A DNA stretch of 64,000 nt from Terrilactibacillus sp. S3-3 (GTDB lineage Bacteria > Bacillota > Bacilli > Bacillales > Sporolactobacillaceae): assembly GCA_030437565.1 (NCBI GenBank), contig CP129291.1, forward strand, positions 496,001 through 560,000, given 5' to 3'. Below are positions 3,628-58,151 of this stretch, one piece after another; position 1 is the stretch's first letter; each line of letters opens with the position of its first letter. The position numbers and the translations under genes are program-made. A model generated the notes under the pieces. It saw nothing but the letters and a program-made list of their open reading frames with translations, was not told the origin of the DNA and did no database searches.

Positions 3628-4903
3628 GTGTTTTCTAAAAGAATGAGTTTGCTAGTGGGAGTGATCATTTTTTTGCAAGCATCTGCAAGTGAAAGAACGG
3701 CGGGCGCTCACCGCGGCCAAAGCAATGGGCAAAAGATTTGGTTTGTGATGATACTTGGCGCGCTCAGTGCTTTTGGCCCGCTGTCAATGGATATGTATTT
3801 GCCGTCTCTGCCGTCATTGACTGAAGATCTGCATGCCACGACATCGATGGCAGAGCTGAGTATCACGTCCTGTCTGATTGGCCTTGCTTTGGGCCAGATA
3901 TTTGCCGGCCCCTACAGCGACGCGATCGGCAGAAGGCGGCCGCTCTTAATCGGTTTATTGATTTTTGCGGTTACATCGTTTTTTGTGCGCGGCTTCGGCA
4001 TCCATTCAGATGCTGGTGGTTTTGCGTTTTTTGCAAGGATTGGCCGGAGCTGCCGGCATCGTGATTTCAAGAGCCATCCCCGCGACCTGTATTCCGGCGT
4101 TAAATTAACCAAGTTCATTTCGATGCTGGCTGCGGTCAACGGTATTTTTCCAATATTGTCCCCGGTTTTCGGCGGTTTTTTACTGCGGTTTACGTCTTGG
4201 AAAGGCGTTTTTGTCGTTTTGGGCATCATTGGCCTTTTTTTTTTTTCTCGGTACCTGTTTCGGGGTGCGTGAGACGCTGTCGGAATCGCGGCGTGAGAAA
4301 AGAGGGATCAGCGGAACCTTTTCCAATCTTGGCGGCCTGTTCCGCGATCGGATGTTTATGGGCTATGCGCTGTCGCAGGGATTAATCATGGCGGCGATGT
4401 TTTGCTACATTTCCGGATCGTCTTTTGTGCTGCAAAATATGTTCGGCCTGTCTTCACTAGGATTCAGTTTTGTGTTTGCGGTGAATGGCATGGGCATTAT
4501 CTTTGCTTCGCAACTGACGGGGCTATTATCCGGAAAAGTCGGCGAAAAAAAGCTGCTCGTTGTCGGTCTAGCTGTTGCGGCATGCGGCAGTATCGGGCTG
4601 TTCGGCAGTCTGTTCGTCCATCCGGCCCGTTTAATCATGGTGGTGATTCCGCTCTTTTTCATTGTCTCAATGGTCGGCGTCGTCAGCACGACGGCTTTTT
4701 CCTTGGCGATGCAGAATCAGGGAAGGGCAGCGGGAAGCGCCTCGGCTATTTTGGGAATGGGAATGAATGTGATTGGCGGAGCATTGGCACCGCTTGTTGG
4801 TCTCGGCGGCAGTCACACCTATTTTCCGATGAGTCTATTGATTTTGATCTGCGATGTCGGCGCGCTGCTGTCTTATTTGCTGATTTTGAAAAAAAGAGCC
4901 TGA
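3628..4903 (+). CDS. Bcr/CflA-family MFS drug exporter
   Basis: Twelve-helix proton-coupled exporter of the Bcr/CflA branch of the major facilitator superfamily. The text GPLSMDMYLPSLP in helix 1 and GPYSDAIGRRRPLL in the loop between helices 2 and 3 are typical of the branch. The frame breaks at T runs near 3975 and at a run of twelve T near 4236-4247. The start is unsure: GTG 3628, ATG 3643 or a later start close to the first helix (about 3748) are all possible because the N-terminal 40 residues do not resemble the family. It stands alone between two terminators. The substrate cannot be told from sequence. Confidence 0.82.
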
Positions 4904-12462: not shown

Positions 12463-13735
12463 TTATACTTTTCGCTTAACATTTTTGAGCACGATTTTAC
12501 TATGGGGGATACTTGGTATGCTGACCATGCTGAAACTTAAATCCTGGTCAGGAACTTCAAAACTCATTCGATACCAGATAATTCAGGCTGACTTTCATCA
12601 CTTCAATGGTTACCCATTCACCGGCACAGCGGTGTCCCATGAAGTAATCACCGCCGCCTTGAGGAATGAAGCTGAAAGGACTGTCTGCCCAATTGGCAAA
12701 GCGTTTGGGATTAAACACTTCGGGATTGTCCCAAATTTTTGGGTCATGATTTGTGCCGTAAAGATCTAATAAAGTGAATGTGCCTTCCTCAAATTGATAG
12801 CCCTTCCAGGTGAAATCTTTTTTTACCAGTGCAGCGACAAAAGGAAAGAATGGATAAAAACGGCGAACTTCTTGAATAAACATCAGGGCGTATTTTTCAT
12901 CTCCAGATTCAAGCTTTTTTCTCTCTTCCGGAAAATGGTACACGGCCAGGGCAGTGAAATTGATAAAGACGGCGATCGCTACAATGGGCCGCAAAATATT
13001 GATGACTTCCACGGCGGCGATCTCAGTATCTAAAAATTTCCCGTTCAGATCACGATGCCAGGCGAACGTGTGCAATGCCGTATTTTCCGGGGGATTCACT
13101 TTTCCATCACGAACTTGAACAATGAGATCACCGATCCACTTTTCTACCCGATTCCGGGCATTTCGTCCTAACCAGTGGGCCGGGCCGACTGAGGCTGCCG
13201 TCTCGAACATCGCTCCTAAATCATTTGTCCATTTCTTCACTTCATCTTCTTTTAACGGTACGCCGGCCCACTGGCAGGCTGTTCTGCACATGATCTCCTG
13301 TACTTCATCGTAGAGGACAACCTTATCCATTCGTTCCCACTTATCCACGGCCGTTTGCCACTGTTGTTTAGTCACATTGGTTAAGTTCTTTAATCCCTCA
13401 GGAGTCATGATCGACATAAACATGTCTTTGCGGTGTTTATGCGCCTCCCCATCGAGCGTTTGAATACCGTTTTGACCAAACAAGGTTTCCAGCGCTCTGT
13501 TTGGTGCCGCCTTTTTTCTCTTGAATTTCTCATTGTCATAAAAGATTTCAGCCGCTTCTTTTCCTCCGATGCAGATTGCTTTTTTCCCAAGTAATCGAGT
13601 TGCAAAGACATCGGAATGAAAACTGCGCCGCCTGTTCGAAATGTACATATATCCTTCTCTAAGCAGGCTTAAAGTATGGTCTATTCCTTCTTCTTGAGGT
13701 ATTTTGGTTAAATTCGGCATTTGATCCATCTCCAT
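12463..13735 (-). CDS. cypC: CYP152 fatty-acid peroxygenase (CypC)
   Basis: Cytochrome P450 that uses hydrogen peroxide to hydroxylate long-chain fatty acids at the alpha or beta carbon, needing no reductase. The Arg-Pro pair that binds the substrate carboxylate is present ([11 protein letters not shown]), as are the K-helix EVRR, the text [11 protein letters not shown] and the haem-thiolate motif GHRCAGEW. The frame breaks near 12570; after it the text continues [13 protein letters not shown] to KNVKRKV, ending at 12463, as in B. subtilis CypC. The start may be ATG 13735 or the internal ATG at 13720, which has GGAG at a better distance. It is a single-gene unit. Confidence 0.9.
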
Positions 13736-13885: not shown

Positions 13886-14023
13886 CTTCTATCGTAATTG
13901 GCAGAAGACTCCCGCTTCAAGTGTTGCTAAGCGGGAGATGAGTGCCATCTGCTAGTTGCAACTCCCGTTTCTGTCATGCTATAATATTCACGAACGTAAG
14001 TTCTGTGTATGGGGGGCGAACCT

Positions 14024-15202
14024 ATGCTGGTCAACAAAGCCTATAAGTTTCGCATCTTTCCAAACAAAAAACAGGTGGGACTCATCAACAAAACCATCGG
14101 CTGTTCCCGATTTGTGTTTAATTTCTTTCTGGGTAAGCAGAAAGAAAAAGATGCCTACTGGCAGATTGTCGAAGAAATGGTTCAAAACGGCCAGATTCCA
14201 GCTAACTCTTGGAAAGGTGAACGCCTCAACAAATATGAAACAGTCAAAGCCCTTCCTGAACTCAAGAGCCACTCTGCTTTTCTAAAAGAAGTGGACAGTA
14301 TCGCCTTGCAAAAATCTGTTGAAAACTTGGCGGATGCCTATCGCCGATACTACAAAAAACAAACCAAATACCCGCGTTTTTTTAAATCAAAGAAACATCC
14401 GATTCAGTCGTACACAACGAAGATGGTCAATCAGAATATTGCGGTCATTGGAAACCATATCAAACTGCCGAAACTTGGTCTGGTTCGTTTTGCCAAAAGC
14501 CGCGATGTCCAAGGCAGGATTATGAATGCCACAATCAGGCGGCATCCCTCCGGCAAATACTTTGTATCAATAGGCACCGAGGCAGAAGTTTCCGCATGGC
14601 CGAAAACCCATTCAGCTGTTGGCATTGATGTCGGACTCAAAAACTTTGCGATTCTCTCGGATGGGACAGTACACACCAACCTCAAGTTTTTCCGCACCTT
14701 GGAAGAAAAATTGGTCAAAGCCCAGCGGATCATGAGCAGGCGTTCTATGGGCGGGTCCAATTGGTACAAAGCCAAAATCAAAGTCGCCCGTATCCACGAA
14801 AAGATGGCCAATGCACGGCAAGATTACTTAGACAAAATCTCCACCGAAATTGTCAAAAACCACGATGTGATCGGGATGGAGAATTTGTCTGTATCCAACC
14901 TGTTACAAAATCATCATCTTGCAAAAGCGATCAGTGAAGTGTCTTGGTCACGATTCAAAACAATGATTGAATATAAAGCCAAGTGGTATGGCAAGTGCGT
15001 CGTTACGGTGGCGAAAAACTTTCCTTCCAGCCAGCTTTGTTCTTGTTGCGGCTACCAAAATAAAGACGTCAAGCAGCTCGGATTGCGTGAATGGGACTGC
15101 CCAAAATGCCATGCCCATCATGATCGAGATATGAACGCAAGTATCAATCTTAAAAATGAAGCGATAAGGCTTCTAACCGCAGGGACTGCGGGGATCGCCT
15201 AA
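14024..15202 (+). CDS. tnpB: TnpB RNA-guided nuclease
   Basis: IS200/IS605 OrfB protein, an ancestor-type relative of Cas12 that cuts DNA using an RNA from the element's right end. Intact, about 392 residues from [17 protein letters not shown]. The RuvC acidic residues are visible: Asp in GIDVGLKNF (about 14623), Glu in IGMENL (about 14878) and Asp in [12 protein letters not shown] (about 15120). A four-Cys zinc ribbon CSCCGYQ...CPKC sits between the last two. The upstream ATG at 14009 is less likely. Unlike most long genes in the window it has no frame break. Confidence 0.93.
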
Positions 15203-15664: not shown

Positions 15665-17859
15665 TTATTTATTGAACATGTCGAGTACATTATCCAGCAT
15701 TTGCATGCCGTTGTTACCCTCCATTGTCATGATCGACTCCGGATGGAACTGGACGGCCGCGATCGGCAGACGGCGATGTTCGATGGCCATAATCACGCCG
15801 TCATCGGAACGGGCCGTGACGACTAAATCATCCGGCAGATGTTCAGCAAAGATGGAATGATAGCGTCCCGCTCTGAATGTTTCAGGAACATTTTTGAATA
15901 ATGCCGACCTGCCGTCGTGGATCACGGTTGATTTTTTTCCGTGGGTCGGGGCAGGAAGCAAGTTCAACTGACCGCCAAAGTATTCGACAATGCCCTGCAA
16001 GCCGAGGCAGATGCCGAATACAGGAATATGATGTTCAACGCAGAGCCGAATCGTTTCGTCCATCCGGAAGCGGCTGGCTCGCCCGGACCAGGCGACAGAA
16101 TCACAAGATCAACGTTTTCCGCTCCCTCTTTAATCAGCTGCCTGGCATACGGGCTGCGGCAGACAGAGACTTCGGCGCCGAGACTCTGAAAATAACTGGC
16201 CAAAGTATGGACAAAAGAGTCCTGGTGATCGATCAGGAGGACGCGGCGGACAGCTTTTGGCTTTTTGCCGGCAGCAGTTGGCATCGCTGCCGTTTCTTCA
16301 GCCGGCCGATAAGGTTTGAGCGCCTCCATCAAAGCCCCCGCTTTTGTCAGCGTTTCCTGTTCCTCATTTTCCGGCACCGAGTCATAGAGCAGCGTGGCGC
16401 CGACGCGAATCTCAGCGGTGCCTTTATGAATCCGCATCGTTCTGAGCGTCAAACCGGTGTTCAGGTTGCCGTTAAAGCCGAACCAGCCGACGGCGCCGCC
16501 ATACCAGCGGCGCGGCGTTTTTTTTTCATGCTTTTCGATCCATGTCATCGCCTCGAGTTTCGGCGCGCCGGTGACGGTTACCGCCCACATATGCGTCATA
16601 AAGGCATCGAAAGCGTCAAAGCCTTCTTTCAGGTCTCCTTTAATGTGATCAACCGTGTGAAACAGGTGGGAATAGGTTTCGATCTGCCGGCGTCCGATGA
16701 CTTTTACCGATCCCGGTACGCAGACACGCGATTTGTCATTACGGTCCACGTCGGTGCACATCGTGAGTTCCGATTCTTCCTTGTCGGAGCTGAGCAGTGT
16801 CTTAATTTGCTCGGCATCTTCAATAACAGAACCGCGCCGTTTGATTGTGCCGGAAATCGGGCATGTTTCCACAACGCCGTTTTCCACTCTCACGTACATT
16901 TCCGGCGAGCAGCCGACGAGAAATTCGCGATCATTCAGATGAATCAGAAAACCGTACGGACTTGGATTTATGCGGCGCAAGTTTTGAAAAACTTCGGAAG
17001 GCGGAATGGTGCATGGCTGCGATAAGATTCGGCTTGGCACGACTTCAAAGAGATCGCCCTTTTTGAAAGCTTTTTTGCTTCGCGGACAATATCGGCATAC
17101 TCGCCTTTGCGGCTGGCAAAGGATTCGGGTGATTCTTCTCCTTGGCCGGATGAAGAACGATAGGGGACGACGGCACCGTCCCGGGGCAGCCCTTCCGTTA
17201 CCTTATCGCCGACAGCAAATTCATAAGACAACCGATAAGCTTGTTTCTTTTGCTGGTCGACAATAAAAAGTTCATCAGGCAGATACAGCTGCAAATCGGT
17301 ATGGTTCTTGTCTCTTTTTTTATATAGAGGCAGCTGCTCAAACTGGTGAATCAAGTCGAAGCCGAATGCGCCGTAGAGACCGAGAAAAGCGTCATCCGTG
17401 CGGAAAAGCCGCTGAATTTGCCTCAGCAATGTGAATATCGACGGCTGTTTGGTCCGATCTTCTTCTTTCAATACCGTATAATCTTCCGACTGAATCGTTC
17501 CTTCCAGGCAATCGGGGGCAGCTGAATGAAAAAAAACAAATGCGCGATCGTCCAGATGTTCTGCAAGATAATATCAGTACGTTTCCGCGGGCATTTAAAG
17601 CTTTGATGCGGAATGTTCGTCTTGACGCAGTCATTTCAATCGGCGGGTTGAAAAAACCGATGTCCCATCTGGAATATCTCCCGGGAAATTCATAAGTGCT
17701 GGAAAACAGCGCGCCTTTGTGATCATCTAATTTGTTCAAGAGAAAAGGAACGGGAAAATCCATAGATAATGGGGTTTGAGTACGGGAAATACGCAGTCCC
17801 ATGCTCGTGGCATAAGAAACGGTGTCGGTCGTGGCATCCACGTTGGATAATAGGCTCAT
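15665..17859 (-). CDS. trpE: Anthranilate synthase, TrpE-TrpG fusion
   Basis: One protein of about 730 residues carrying chorismate-binding TrpE and glutamine amidotransferase TrpG; makes anthranilate for tryptophan synthesis. ATG 17859 follows GGGAGGA. The TrpE part has [41 protein letters not shown] and GAPKLEAM. The TrpG part starts near [15 protein letters not shown] and has the catalytic Cys in GICLGLQG and His-Glu in FHPES. The frame breaks near 17570, 17045 and 16065. The fused form with this TrpE type is best known from alpha-proteobacteria (TIGR01815-like, from memory) and is unusual in Bacilli. A TRAP-type leader precedes it; no other trp gene is next to it. A role in phenazine- or PABA-type chemistry is less likely given the leader. 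Confidence 0.88.
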
Positions 17860-17975
17860 GTGAAATTCCTCCCTGTATAAATTGGTTATACAGAAGAGAG
17901 CAAGAAATCATTTGGAAATGGCAACAAGAAAAGACACGGATAAATAGACCGTCTTTCGTAATGTTTTTTTTTTTC

Positions 17976-18019
17976 CTCTGCTCAGCTAAAATTGCTCTCA
18001 ACTCTGCTCTACTCGTCTC
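17976..18019 (-). promoter_or_regulatory. TRAP-binding site in trpE(G) leader
   Basis: The minus-strand RNA carries eight NAG triplets: GAG at 18019-18017, 18014-18012, 18009-18007, 18004-18002 and 17999-17997, then an 8-nt spacer, UAG at 17988-17986, GAG at 17983-17981 and 17978-17976. All other spacers are 2 nt. This is the known target pattern of the trp RNA-binding attenuation protein. A weak hairpin with a U-rich tail follows at 17956-17931 and could be the attenuator. The mtrB gene for TRAP is not in the window. Confidence 0.8.
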
Positions 18020-18025
18020 TTTTCC

Positions 18026-18054
18026 ATATTACAAGAAAGTGTCGGAAATTTCAA
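18026..18054 (-). promoter_or_regulatory. Sigma-A promoter of trpE(G)
   Basis: On the minus strand TTGAAA (18054-18049) and TAATAT (18031-18026) are spaced by 17 nt. Transcription would begin about 7 nt before the first GAG triplet of the TRAP site. Confidence 0.65.
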
Positions 18055-18266
18055 TAATAAATGTTTCAGATAAGGTATTGACGCGTTTTCATCTCTGTCA
18101 TAACATAGATCTTGCATTATCAAAGAAATGATGGTTTCTTTGAGGTACTAAAGCGGCCGGTACACAGATAAAGGCAGTCTGAATGTTCTGCAGTTTGCCG
18201 GATGTTCTCGCTGATCGGCGTTTTTTTTTTGACTAAGGGATGTCTGTAAGCGGGGGGGAAGATGGA

Positions 18267-19198
18267 ATGGCAACAAAATCACTGAGCTTGCCAAAAATGA
18301 GGTTTGGGAGAAAAGGAACAGGGATTACGCTCGTCTTGACGGGAGCGATTCTATGGGGAGTTTCCGGAACGGTGGCTCAATATTTATTTCAGGAAAAAGG
18401 GTTTCATGCCGGATGGCTGGTGGCGGTCCGGATGCTTATTTCCGGGCTGGTACTTCTCACGATCTCTTCAATGAAAGAAAAACAATCGATTTGGAAAGTC
18501 TGGCAGGAAAAAAAGTCCCGCCGGCAATTGCTTGTTTTCGGCATTTTCGGCATGATCGGCGTGCAGTATACATACTTTGCGGCGGCAGTGGAAGCGGGCA
18601 ATGCGGCGACATCCACCCTCCTGCAGTATTTAGGGCCGGTGCTGATCATGGCGTACCTGGCTGTGAAATTTAGAAAGATGCCGACCGCGGCCGAATTTTT
18701 TGCTGCCTTTTTAGCCCTGCTCGGCATTTTTTTGCTTGTCACCAAAGGAAGAATGGATACGATCGCTATCAACCCGCTTGAACTTTTTTGGGGGCTGCTT
18801 TCAGCCGGCGGCGCGGCGGTCTATTCGGTGCAGCCGGTTCGACTCCTGAAACAATGGGGATCGGCCATTGTTGTCGGCTGGGGGATGCTGATTGGCGGCG
18901 TTGTGATGAGCATCATCTGTCCGCCTTGGACGTTCTCAGGTGACATTTCTTTTATCTCCATGGCTGCCGTTGCTTTTGTTATTTTATTTGGCACGCTGGC
19001 CGCTTTTTATTTATACATGGAAAGTTTGAAATATTTGAAAGCCACTGAATCCAGTCTGCTTGGCTGTGCGGAACCTCAGCCGCTATATTGAGCGTTGTCT
19101 GGATGGGTGTTCCTTTCACAATCATTGACTGGCTGGGAGCGGGCTGCATTTTAGCGACCATTATTATTCTTTCCAAGTCACAAAGTCCACAGGTTTAG
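18267..19198 (+). CDS. EamA/DMT-family exporter
   Basis: Ten-helix drug/metabolite transporter with two EamA halves, about 310 residues. It starts near TGITLVLTGAILWGVSGT and contains AGNAATSTLLQYLGPVLIM in the first half. The frame breaks near 19075, after LGCAEP; the text then continues as SVVWMGVPFTIIDWLGAGC and ends at 19198. ATG 18267 follows GGGGGGAAG at a good distance; ATG 18240 has a poor one. It diverges from the trpE(G) promoter. The substrate (an amino acid or other metabolite) cannot be told. Confidence 0.85.
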
Positions 19199-40479: not shown

Positions 40480-41174
40480 GGTTTAAATTGAATACTTAGT
40501 TAAGGTACTAGTTTTTATAAACTAAATATGTCTGATAGGAACAGCCAGGAATACTGGAGGGACGACATGAAAATGCCGCACTCTCTTATTCATTGGCGGC
40601 TTTTTCCAGTGCGGTAGTGTTGCTTTGCTTGGCGTTCTAATTACCAGTTGACTGGCAGAGGTGCGTTTTTCTTTGGAAAAACCGATGACGAACGGAAGCA
40701 TGTATTTAAACAGAAAACGATTGTGCAAAGCAGGATCACAGTTCTGATTTGTGTTATTCCCAATTTTGTAGACGATGTCTTTCGTTTAATTAGAAGATAG
40801 GATGATTGATTCATTCGGATAGCCTGAGCTGTAGTTTTTTGTAATAGCAATGGTTAGCTGAATTTTTTTTTATTTTATTAACCGTAAAAAAAAAAATGAG
40901 CCATTAAGGATTGTCGTGTCTTCACTCTTTTCGAAATCGATTGCCATATCACGCGGGTACCTGGTCAAAATCAAAGGTTGTTTTAATACGGGGTCCAACC
41001 CAATATCCAAATCTTTGGCTGGGGAATTCCGTTACTTCTGGGCCGTTTCACATGAGAGACGGCTTTGAACAAGGGAAAACCGCTGTTTTTTAATGTCATA
41101 AAAATATTTCTGCTCAGAGTCTTGAAAAAAATGAAAAAGTATTGTAGGCTATTTAACAATTAAACATTTAATTT
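40480..41174. other. Gap with inverted repeat and possible gene remnant
   Basis: CCGCACT at 40576-40582 pairs with AGTGCGG at 40608-40614. On the plus strand, near 40650-40800, a frame reads FFGKTDDERKHVFKQ and later VIPNFVDDVFRLIRR, without a clear start; it may be a decayed gene. The rest is AT-rich. Confidence 0.35.
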
Positions 41175-41315
41175 CTTATCTAGAGAGGTTGAGGGACTGG
41201 CCCGATGACACCTCAGCAACCGCCGCTTGTTACCTGCGGCAAGGTGCTAATTCCAGCAAGCAAAACCTGCTTGAGGGATAAGAAGGAACCTGGTCGTTCG
41301 GTCTTCTTCTTATTG
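41175..41315 (+). promoter_or_regulatory. SAM-I (S-box) riboswitch of met operon
   Basis: The aptamer runs from CTTATCTAGAGAGG (41175) through GAGGGACTGGCCCGATGA and CCTCAGCAACC, GGTGCTAATTCCAGC and GAGGGATAAG (41282), all hallmarks of the S-box. A hairpin AGAAG...CTTCT with a T-rich tail follows to about 41315 as the terminator. SAM binding should stop transcription of metI-metC-yitJ. Confidence 0.95.
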
Positions 41316-58031: not shown

Positions 58032-58151
58032 CTTCTCATTTTTCGGCCGGATGCTGCCGCAGGAATTGGCACGGTTTTTTTGTTTCTAAGAAAGAACAAC
58101 CCGCTGCCGAGGCTTCATAGGGCCAGTCCCTCCACCTCTCTTAATAAGAAG
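58032..58151 (-). promoter_or_regulatory. SAM-I (S-box) riboswitch, minus strand
   Basis: Read on the minus strand: CTTCTTATTAAGAGAGG, TGGAGGGACTGGCCCTATGA, CGGCAGCGGG, GTGCCAATTCCTGC and closing AATGAGAAG. All S-box hallmarks are present and P1 closes. No methionine gene lies downstream in the window; the next reading frame is the FbpA-like protein. Confidence 0.9.

Follow-up and report, generated by a model that had tools for sequence, protein, structure and literature searches.

The fused anthranilate synthase gene trpE(G) in the window (the whole stretch of DNA analysed, 64,000 nucleotides from Terrilactibacillus sp. S3-3) stands alone from the other trp genes and, as judged from its sequence, is preceded by a genuine TRAP-type leader that most likely acts on translation. 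In its full form, the proposal is that the trpE(G) leader constitutes an RNA switch that is read by tryptophan-activated TRAP and controls translation through a hairpin formed with the Shine-Dalgarno (SD) sequence, a reading that was considered probable and to which good confidence can be attached.

The Predicted TRAP Binding Site and Its Promoter

The predicted TRAP binding site is found on the minus strand at 17976-18019 (GAGacGAGtaGAGcaGAGttGAGagcaatttTAGctGAGcaGAG), in the leader of the tryptophan gene trpE(G) and 3' of a promoter. It is composed of eight (G/U)AG triplets arranged as five triplets, an 8-nt gap and three triplets, so that six of the seven spacers measure 2 nt and the single long one follows triplet 5. 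Since 9-11 repeats are typical of TRAP sites (PMC4347634), eight triplets represent a slightly low count. The sigma-A-like promoter combines a -35 hexamer TTGAAA (18054-18049) with a -10 hexamer TAATAT (18031-18026) across a 17-nt spacer, with 9 of 12 consensus matches, and promoter matches in this region show no excess over shuffled sequence; a TTGAAT-like -35 and a TATGAT-like -10 occupy the same position in most Sporolactobacillus relatives. On the minus strand, the array begins about 6-7 nt after the -10 hexamer, and the RNA is therefore expected to start at, or adjoining, the first GAG. An earlier sequence-only reading of this DNA had described the eight triplets, the 2-nt spacers, the 8-nt gap after the fifth triplet and a promoter some 7 nt ahead, and all of these were confirmed. 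Upstream of the leader and outside the switch, a divergent EamA-family transporter gene was assigned by Pfam (18240-19091, plus strand). The Rfam search returned no match for the leader; elsewhere in the window, two SAM (S-box) riboswitches scored above the Rfam gathering score, at 41173-41284 (plus strand) and 58033-58150 (minus strand).

A single scoring scheme for NAG runs was applied to the window, to simulated DNA and to related loci. The array scored 6.6, while the next best run in the whole window, on both strands, remained below 3.5. The top score was about 3.5 in 2 Mb of simulated Markov-2 DNA and 3.8 in a real control of 1.70 Mb, for which the related loci were taken with their trpE(G) leaders excluded. 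Additionally, an exact pattern of five KAG triplets with 2-nt spacers matched only three times genome-wide, against about 0.2 matches expected per genome by simple arithmetic with even base composition, and all three matches precede trp genes, namely in the trpE(G) leader, in the trpDCFBA leader and at the trpP start. Exact matches alone were counted because, when one mismatch was allowed, the reversed control pattern outnumbered the forward one (15 versus 6 matches).

Distribution of the Leader Among Bacillales

When the central part of TrpE(G) was used as the query for relatives, 80 loci were recovered, 41 of them from Bacillales. An array precedes trpE(G) in 39 of these 41 loci, and in none of the non-Bacillales trpE(G) loci, which are mostly from Legionella. 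The sequence-only reading had regarded TRAP control of a fused anthranilate synthase that is not inside a trpEDCFBA operon as an unusual pairing, a view not supported by these counts: on the sequences compared, a putative TRAP leader in front of a detached trpE(G) is the rule among the Bacillales carrying the fusion, and not an oddity. No trpD or trpC match was found in the fetched flanks across the Bacillales trpE(G) loci, so that trpE(G) is separated from the remaining trp genes throughout this set. The two array-less Bacillales loci are L015, on a truncated contig, and L063 from Paenibacillus curdlanolyticus (about 3900-4300), whose genome carries mtrB. In L052 (Cohnella), the reading frame is broken and the TRAP site was found on a wider scan; the array of L076 reaches into the region of the gene's start, and occlusion may operate there instead of sequestration.

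The TRAP gene, mtrB, was detected in 32 of 32 Bacillales genomes and in 0 of 15 others among the 47 searchable genomes of trpE(G) loci, a co-occurrence that is confounded with ancestry, and in all 26 Sporolactobacillaceae genomes searched. It could be argued that the triplets arose by chance in purine-rich DNA, or that they serve another RNA-binding protein, given that binding cannot be shown by computation alone. However, the array score lies well above the control maxima of 3.5-3.8, the array recurs in 39 Bacillales loci and mtrB follows the distribution just described, which makes this explanation extremely improbable. The claim that a TRAP-type leader precedes a detached TrpE-TrpG fusion gene is borne out, at the level of sequence, by the array, the gene profiles and mtrB. 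A search of the open-access literature turned up no account of a fused trpE(G) under TRAP control.

The Predicted TRAP Network of the Genome

The sequence-only reading had made its claim depend on mtrB being present in the genome, and the claim survived, since the gene follows folE at 1.715 Mb. It is split by a frameshift, and the MtrB profile NF009724 matches one of the two pieces. The predicted TRAP protein (L001 1436-1659) ends in ...GTITSE and is shorter than B. subtilis TRAP. It has been reported that C-terminal truncation can convert TRAP 11-mers to 12-mers (PMC3184956). On the 3' side of mtrB, aro genes are followed by trpDCFBA without trpE (names from translations; TrpD and TrpC by profile). 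The trpD leader holds nine triplets, an SD hairpin and a strong terminator, CCATGGGC-TGCTTC-GCCCATGG with the tail TTTTTATT (-14.6 kcal/mol). In trpP (PF17099), which lies beside genes for a HIT-family protein and an ABC transporter (both assigned by eye), five triplets span the SD sequence and the start codon, and triplets also lie across these elements in relatives.

The genome also encodes an anti-TRAP protein, recognized as an RtpA equivalog with 75.1 bits against a cut-off of 65, with a T-box upstream (G000:C1:3425903-3426052, L121). The gene adjoining it resembles, by eye, a metallo-beta-lactamase-type ribonuclease. The sequence thus predicts a TRAP network much like that of B. subtilis, which includes trpDCFBA, trpP and an anti-TRAP/T-box branch.

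The trpE(G) Reading Frame and the Quality of the Assembly

The trpE(G) gene, which is predicted to join TrpE to the TrpG glutaminase, occupies 15665-17859 on the minus strand, with an ATG at 17859 preceded by the SD sequence GGGAGG, and its frame is broken in the assembly by several frameshifts. The NCBIfam models TIGR01815 and NF010081 match successive pieces of it, with most of the profile covered, and the Pfam domains Anth_synt_I_N, Chorismate_bind and GATase follow one another in order. The frameshifts that cut the gene could mean that trpE(G) is a pseudogene and its leader a relic, but this was judged very unlikely: the genome's mtrB and trpD genes are likewise split, the completeness of the assembly is put at 76% and its contamination at 9%, and long homopolymers, which look inflated in the assembly, are common where frames break. 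Moreover, no second anthranilate synthase was found in the genome; of its two further chorismate-binding enzymes, one is an isochorismate synthase and one a PabB encoded beside PabA, which leaves TrpE(G) as the sole anthranilate synthase found. Therefore, given the splitting of mtrB and trpD and the assembly rating, the frameshifts in trpE(G), mtrB and trpD are apparently assembly errors, many of them at homopolymers. For the genome as a whole, the homopolymers and the frameshifts in these conserved genes suggest uncorrected sequencing errors, and the inflated homopolymers imply that the leader itself may contain an indel. Just past the 3' end of trpE(G), a 397-aa ORF at 14009-15202 (plus strand) resembles, by eye, a TnpB/OrfB-type transposon protein, and a cytochrome P450 gene (PF00067) is located at 12557-13735 of the window (minus strand).

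The Predicted SD Hairpin and the Proposed Competing Helix

Upstream of the start codon, an SD-sequestering hairpin is predicted at 17868-17899 on the minus strand, with the structure UCUCU-U-CUGUAUAA / loop / UUAUACAG-GGAGG and the SD sequence at 17873-17868 (-11.8 kcal/mol, z -3.7). A comparable hairpin was present in every Sporolactobacillaceae leader folded. The anti-SD strand UUGCUCUC (17896-17903, minus strand) overlaps the 5' arm of this hairpin and can either join it or pair with the TRAP site. Its partner would be the proposed antisequestrator strand GAGAGCAA (17992-17999, minus strand), formed by triplet 5 and the five bases that open the gap, which is a perfect 8-bp complement of 17903-17896; this pairing excludes the SD hairpin and vice versa. 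The sequence-only reading had taken the 8-nt gap as merely splitting the site, but the complementarity of the gap start and triplet 5 to the anti-SD strand makes it more likely that the gap is part of the switch. Relatives show corresponding pairings between site and anti-SD strand, as does the trpD leader.

The elements established by sequence are a predicted TRAP site, mtrB, an anti-TRAP gene with its T-box, the hairpin and the mutual complementarity, from which we infer TRAP binding, refolding and an effect on translation. At low tryptophan, the triplets would be free of TRAP, and GAGAGCAA (17999-17992) would pair with UUGCUCUC (17903-17896), which would engage the hairpin's 5' arm and leave the ribosome-binding site accessible. 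At high tryptophan, wrapping of the triplets around the TRAP ring would release the 5' arm, which would allow the hairpin UCUCU-U-CUGUAUAA/UUAUACAGGGAGG to form and bury the SD sequence, and TrpE(G) translation would fall. In the presence of uncharged tRNA-Trp, anti-TRAP, made behind the T-box, would oppose the repression exerted by TRAP.

When the TRAP site was blocked in the computation, the accessibility of the SD sequence fell from 0.30 to 0.12 in the window leader (about 2.5-fold), and in relatives from 0.65 to 0.06, 0.61 to 0.09, 0.55 to 0.03 and 0.77 to 0.004; no computed effect on SD accessibility was obtained in L003, L012 and L007. The energy models used leave out co-transcriptional folding. 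Shuffled versions of the window leader's site gave pairing with the anti-SD strand at least as strong as the native one in 26 of 30 cases. As TRAP sites are alike in composition, sites taken from other leader groups provide a fair control. Such foreign sites equalled or beat the native one in 18 of 480 trials for trpD, 57 of 396 for Sporolactobacillus trpE(G), 66 of 312 for Saccharibacillus and 114 of 342 for Paenibacillus, while Terrilactibacillus showed no preference for the native site over foreign ones; for the window's trpE(G) leader, 11 of 36 foreign sites matched the native pairing. The result for this leader being no more than suggestive, the mechanism here rests partly on the relatives and on the trpD leader of the same genome. 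In trpD, the helix is mostly GAAUGAGC/GCUCAUUC, and two species have AGUGAGUGA/UCACUCACU in its place, where each strand differs but pairing remains complete; in Paenibacillus, the helix GAGAACAGG/CCUGUUCUC was found in four loci. On this comparative evidence, a competing-helix switch appears strongly supported for the relatives and for the trpD leader of this genome, and moderately supported for the window leader.

A wider proposal can be made, although only tentatively, its chances being put slightly below even. In the fused, detached trpE(G) of Bacillales, the irregular spacers of the TRAP site and the triplets next to them might form an antisequestrator, so that the protein site would itself be a helix strand, with different sequences in different groups: AGAAGAGCA/UGCUCUUCU in Sporolactobacillaceae and the pairs given above for Paenibacillus and for trpD.

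Transcription attenuation at 17931-17956, as put forward in the sequence-only reading, was not upheld for this leader. In such a scheme, TRAP binding would disrupt an antiterminator and a hairpin at 17929-17957 (minus strand) would terminate transcription before trpE(G). A precedent exists within the genome, in the clear terminator of the trpD leader described above, and the Sporolactobacillus leaders L004, L005 and L006 contain hairpins with energies between -8 and -11 kcal/mol and a T-rich tail behind them, so that some termination is possible there. However, the window hairpin is weak (-5.6 kcal/mol, z -0.7 versus shuffles), no intrinsic terminator was found 3' of the TRAP site in the trpE(G) leader, and none was found in most Paenibacillus and Saccharibacillus trpE(G) leaders, which renders attenuation at this locus rather unlikely. 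Whole-leader MFE folding (z -0.26) was uninformative. Direct occlusion, in which leader-bound TRAP would block the ribosome sterically, has its model in trpP, whose triplets cross the SD sequence and start codon in this genome and in relatives; in the trpE(G) leader, however, the last triplet is located about 117 nt 5' of the start codon, too far for direct blocking, and such a mode is scarcely credible here. Sequestration of the SD sequence by the hairpin, governed by TRAP at a distance, therefore remains the preferred reading.

Comparison With Known TRAP-Regulated Systems

If these predictions hold, the TRAP/anti-TRAP network is not limited to B. subtilis but also covers Bacillales with a fused, separate anthranilate synthase gene, and the antisequestrator reading offers a testable reason for the uneven spacing of the TRAP array. 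Among the closest known systems is the B. subtilis trpEDCFBA leader, which likewise holds a (G/U)AG array read by TRAP and, 3' of the site, an SD hairpin formed on TRAP binding (PMC11255114, PMC4347634). In contrast to that operon, trpE is here fused to trpG and lies apart from trpDCFBA, the array counts eight triplets, interrupted by an 8-nt gap, against 11 in B. subtilis, it starts at the predicted 5' end of the transcript, no convincing terminator accompanies it, and the complement of the anti-SD strand is part of the TRAP site itself.

The same regulator acts on B. subtilis trpG (pabA), trpP and ycbK, where TRAP blocks ribosome binding; the trpP plan is kept in this genome, whereas trpE(G) uses a distant TRAP site. 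Additionally, the B. subtilis trpG transcript carries a TRAP site (PMC11255114), whereas the region of the separate pabA found here holds no TRAP array scoring at least 3.0, which fits a glutaminase that is no longer shared with tryptophan synthesis. The suggested logic is that fusion of trpG to trpE relieves pabA, the gene of the folate glutaminase, of the need for TRAP control. Finally, the RtpA equivalog with its upstream T-box resembles the anti-TRAP/T-box branch of B. subtilis, but this branch is patchy in Sporolactobacillaceae, as anti-TRAP exceeded the Pfam cut-off in 2 of 26 genomes, the second of which (G006) also places it behind a T-box.
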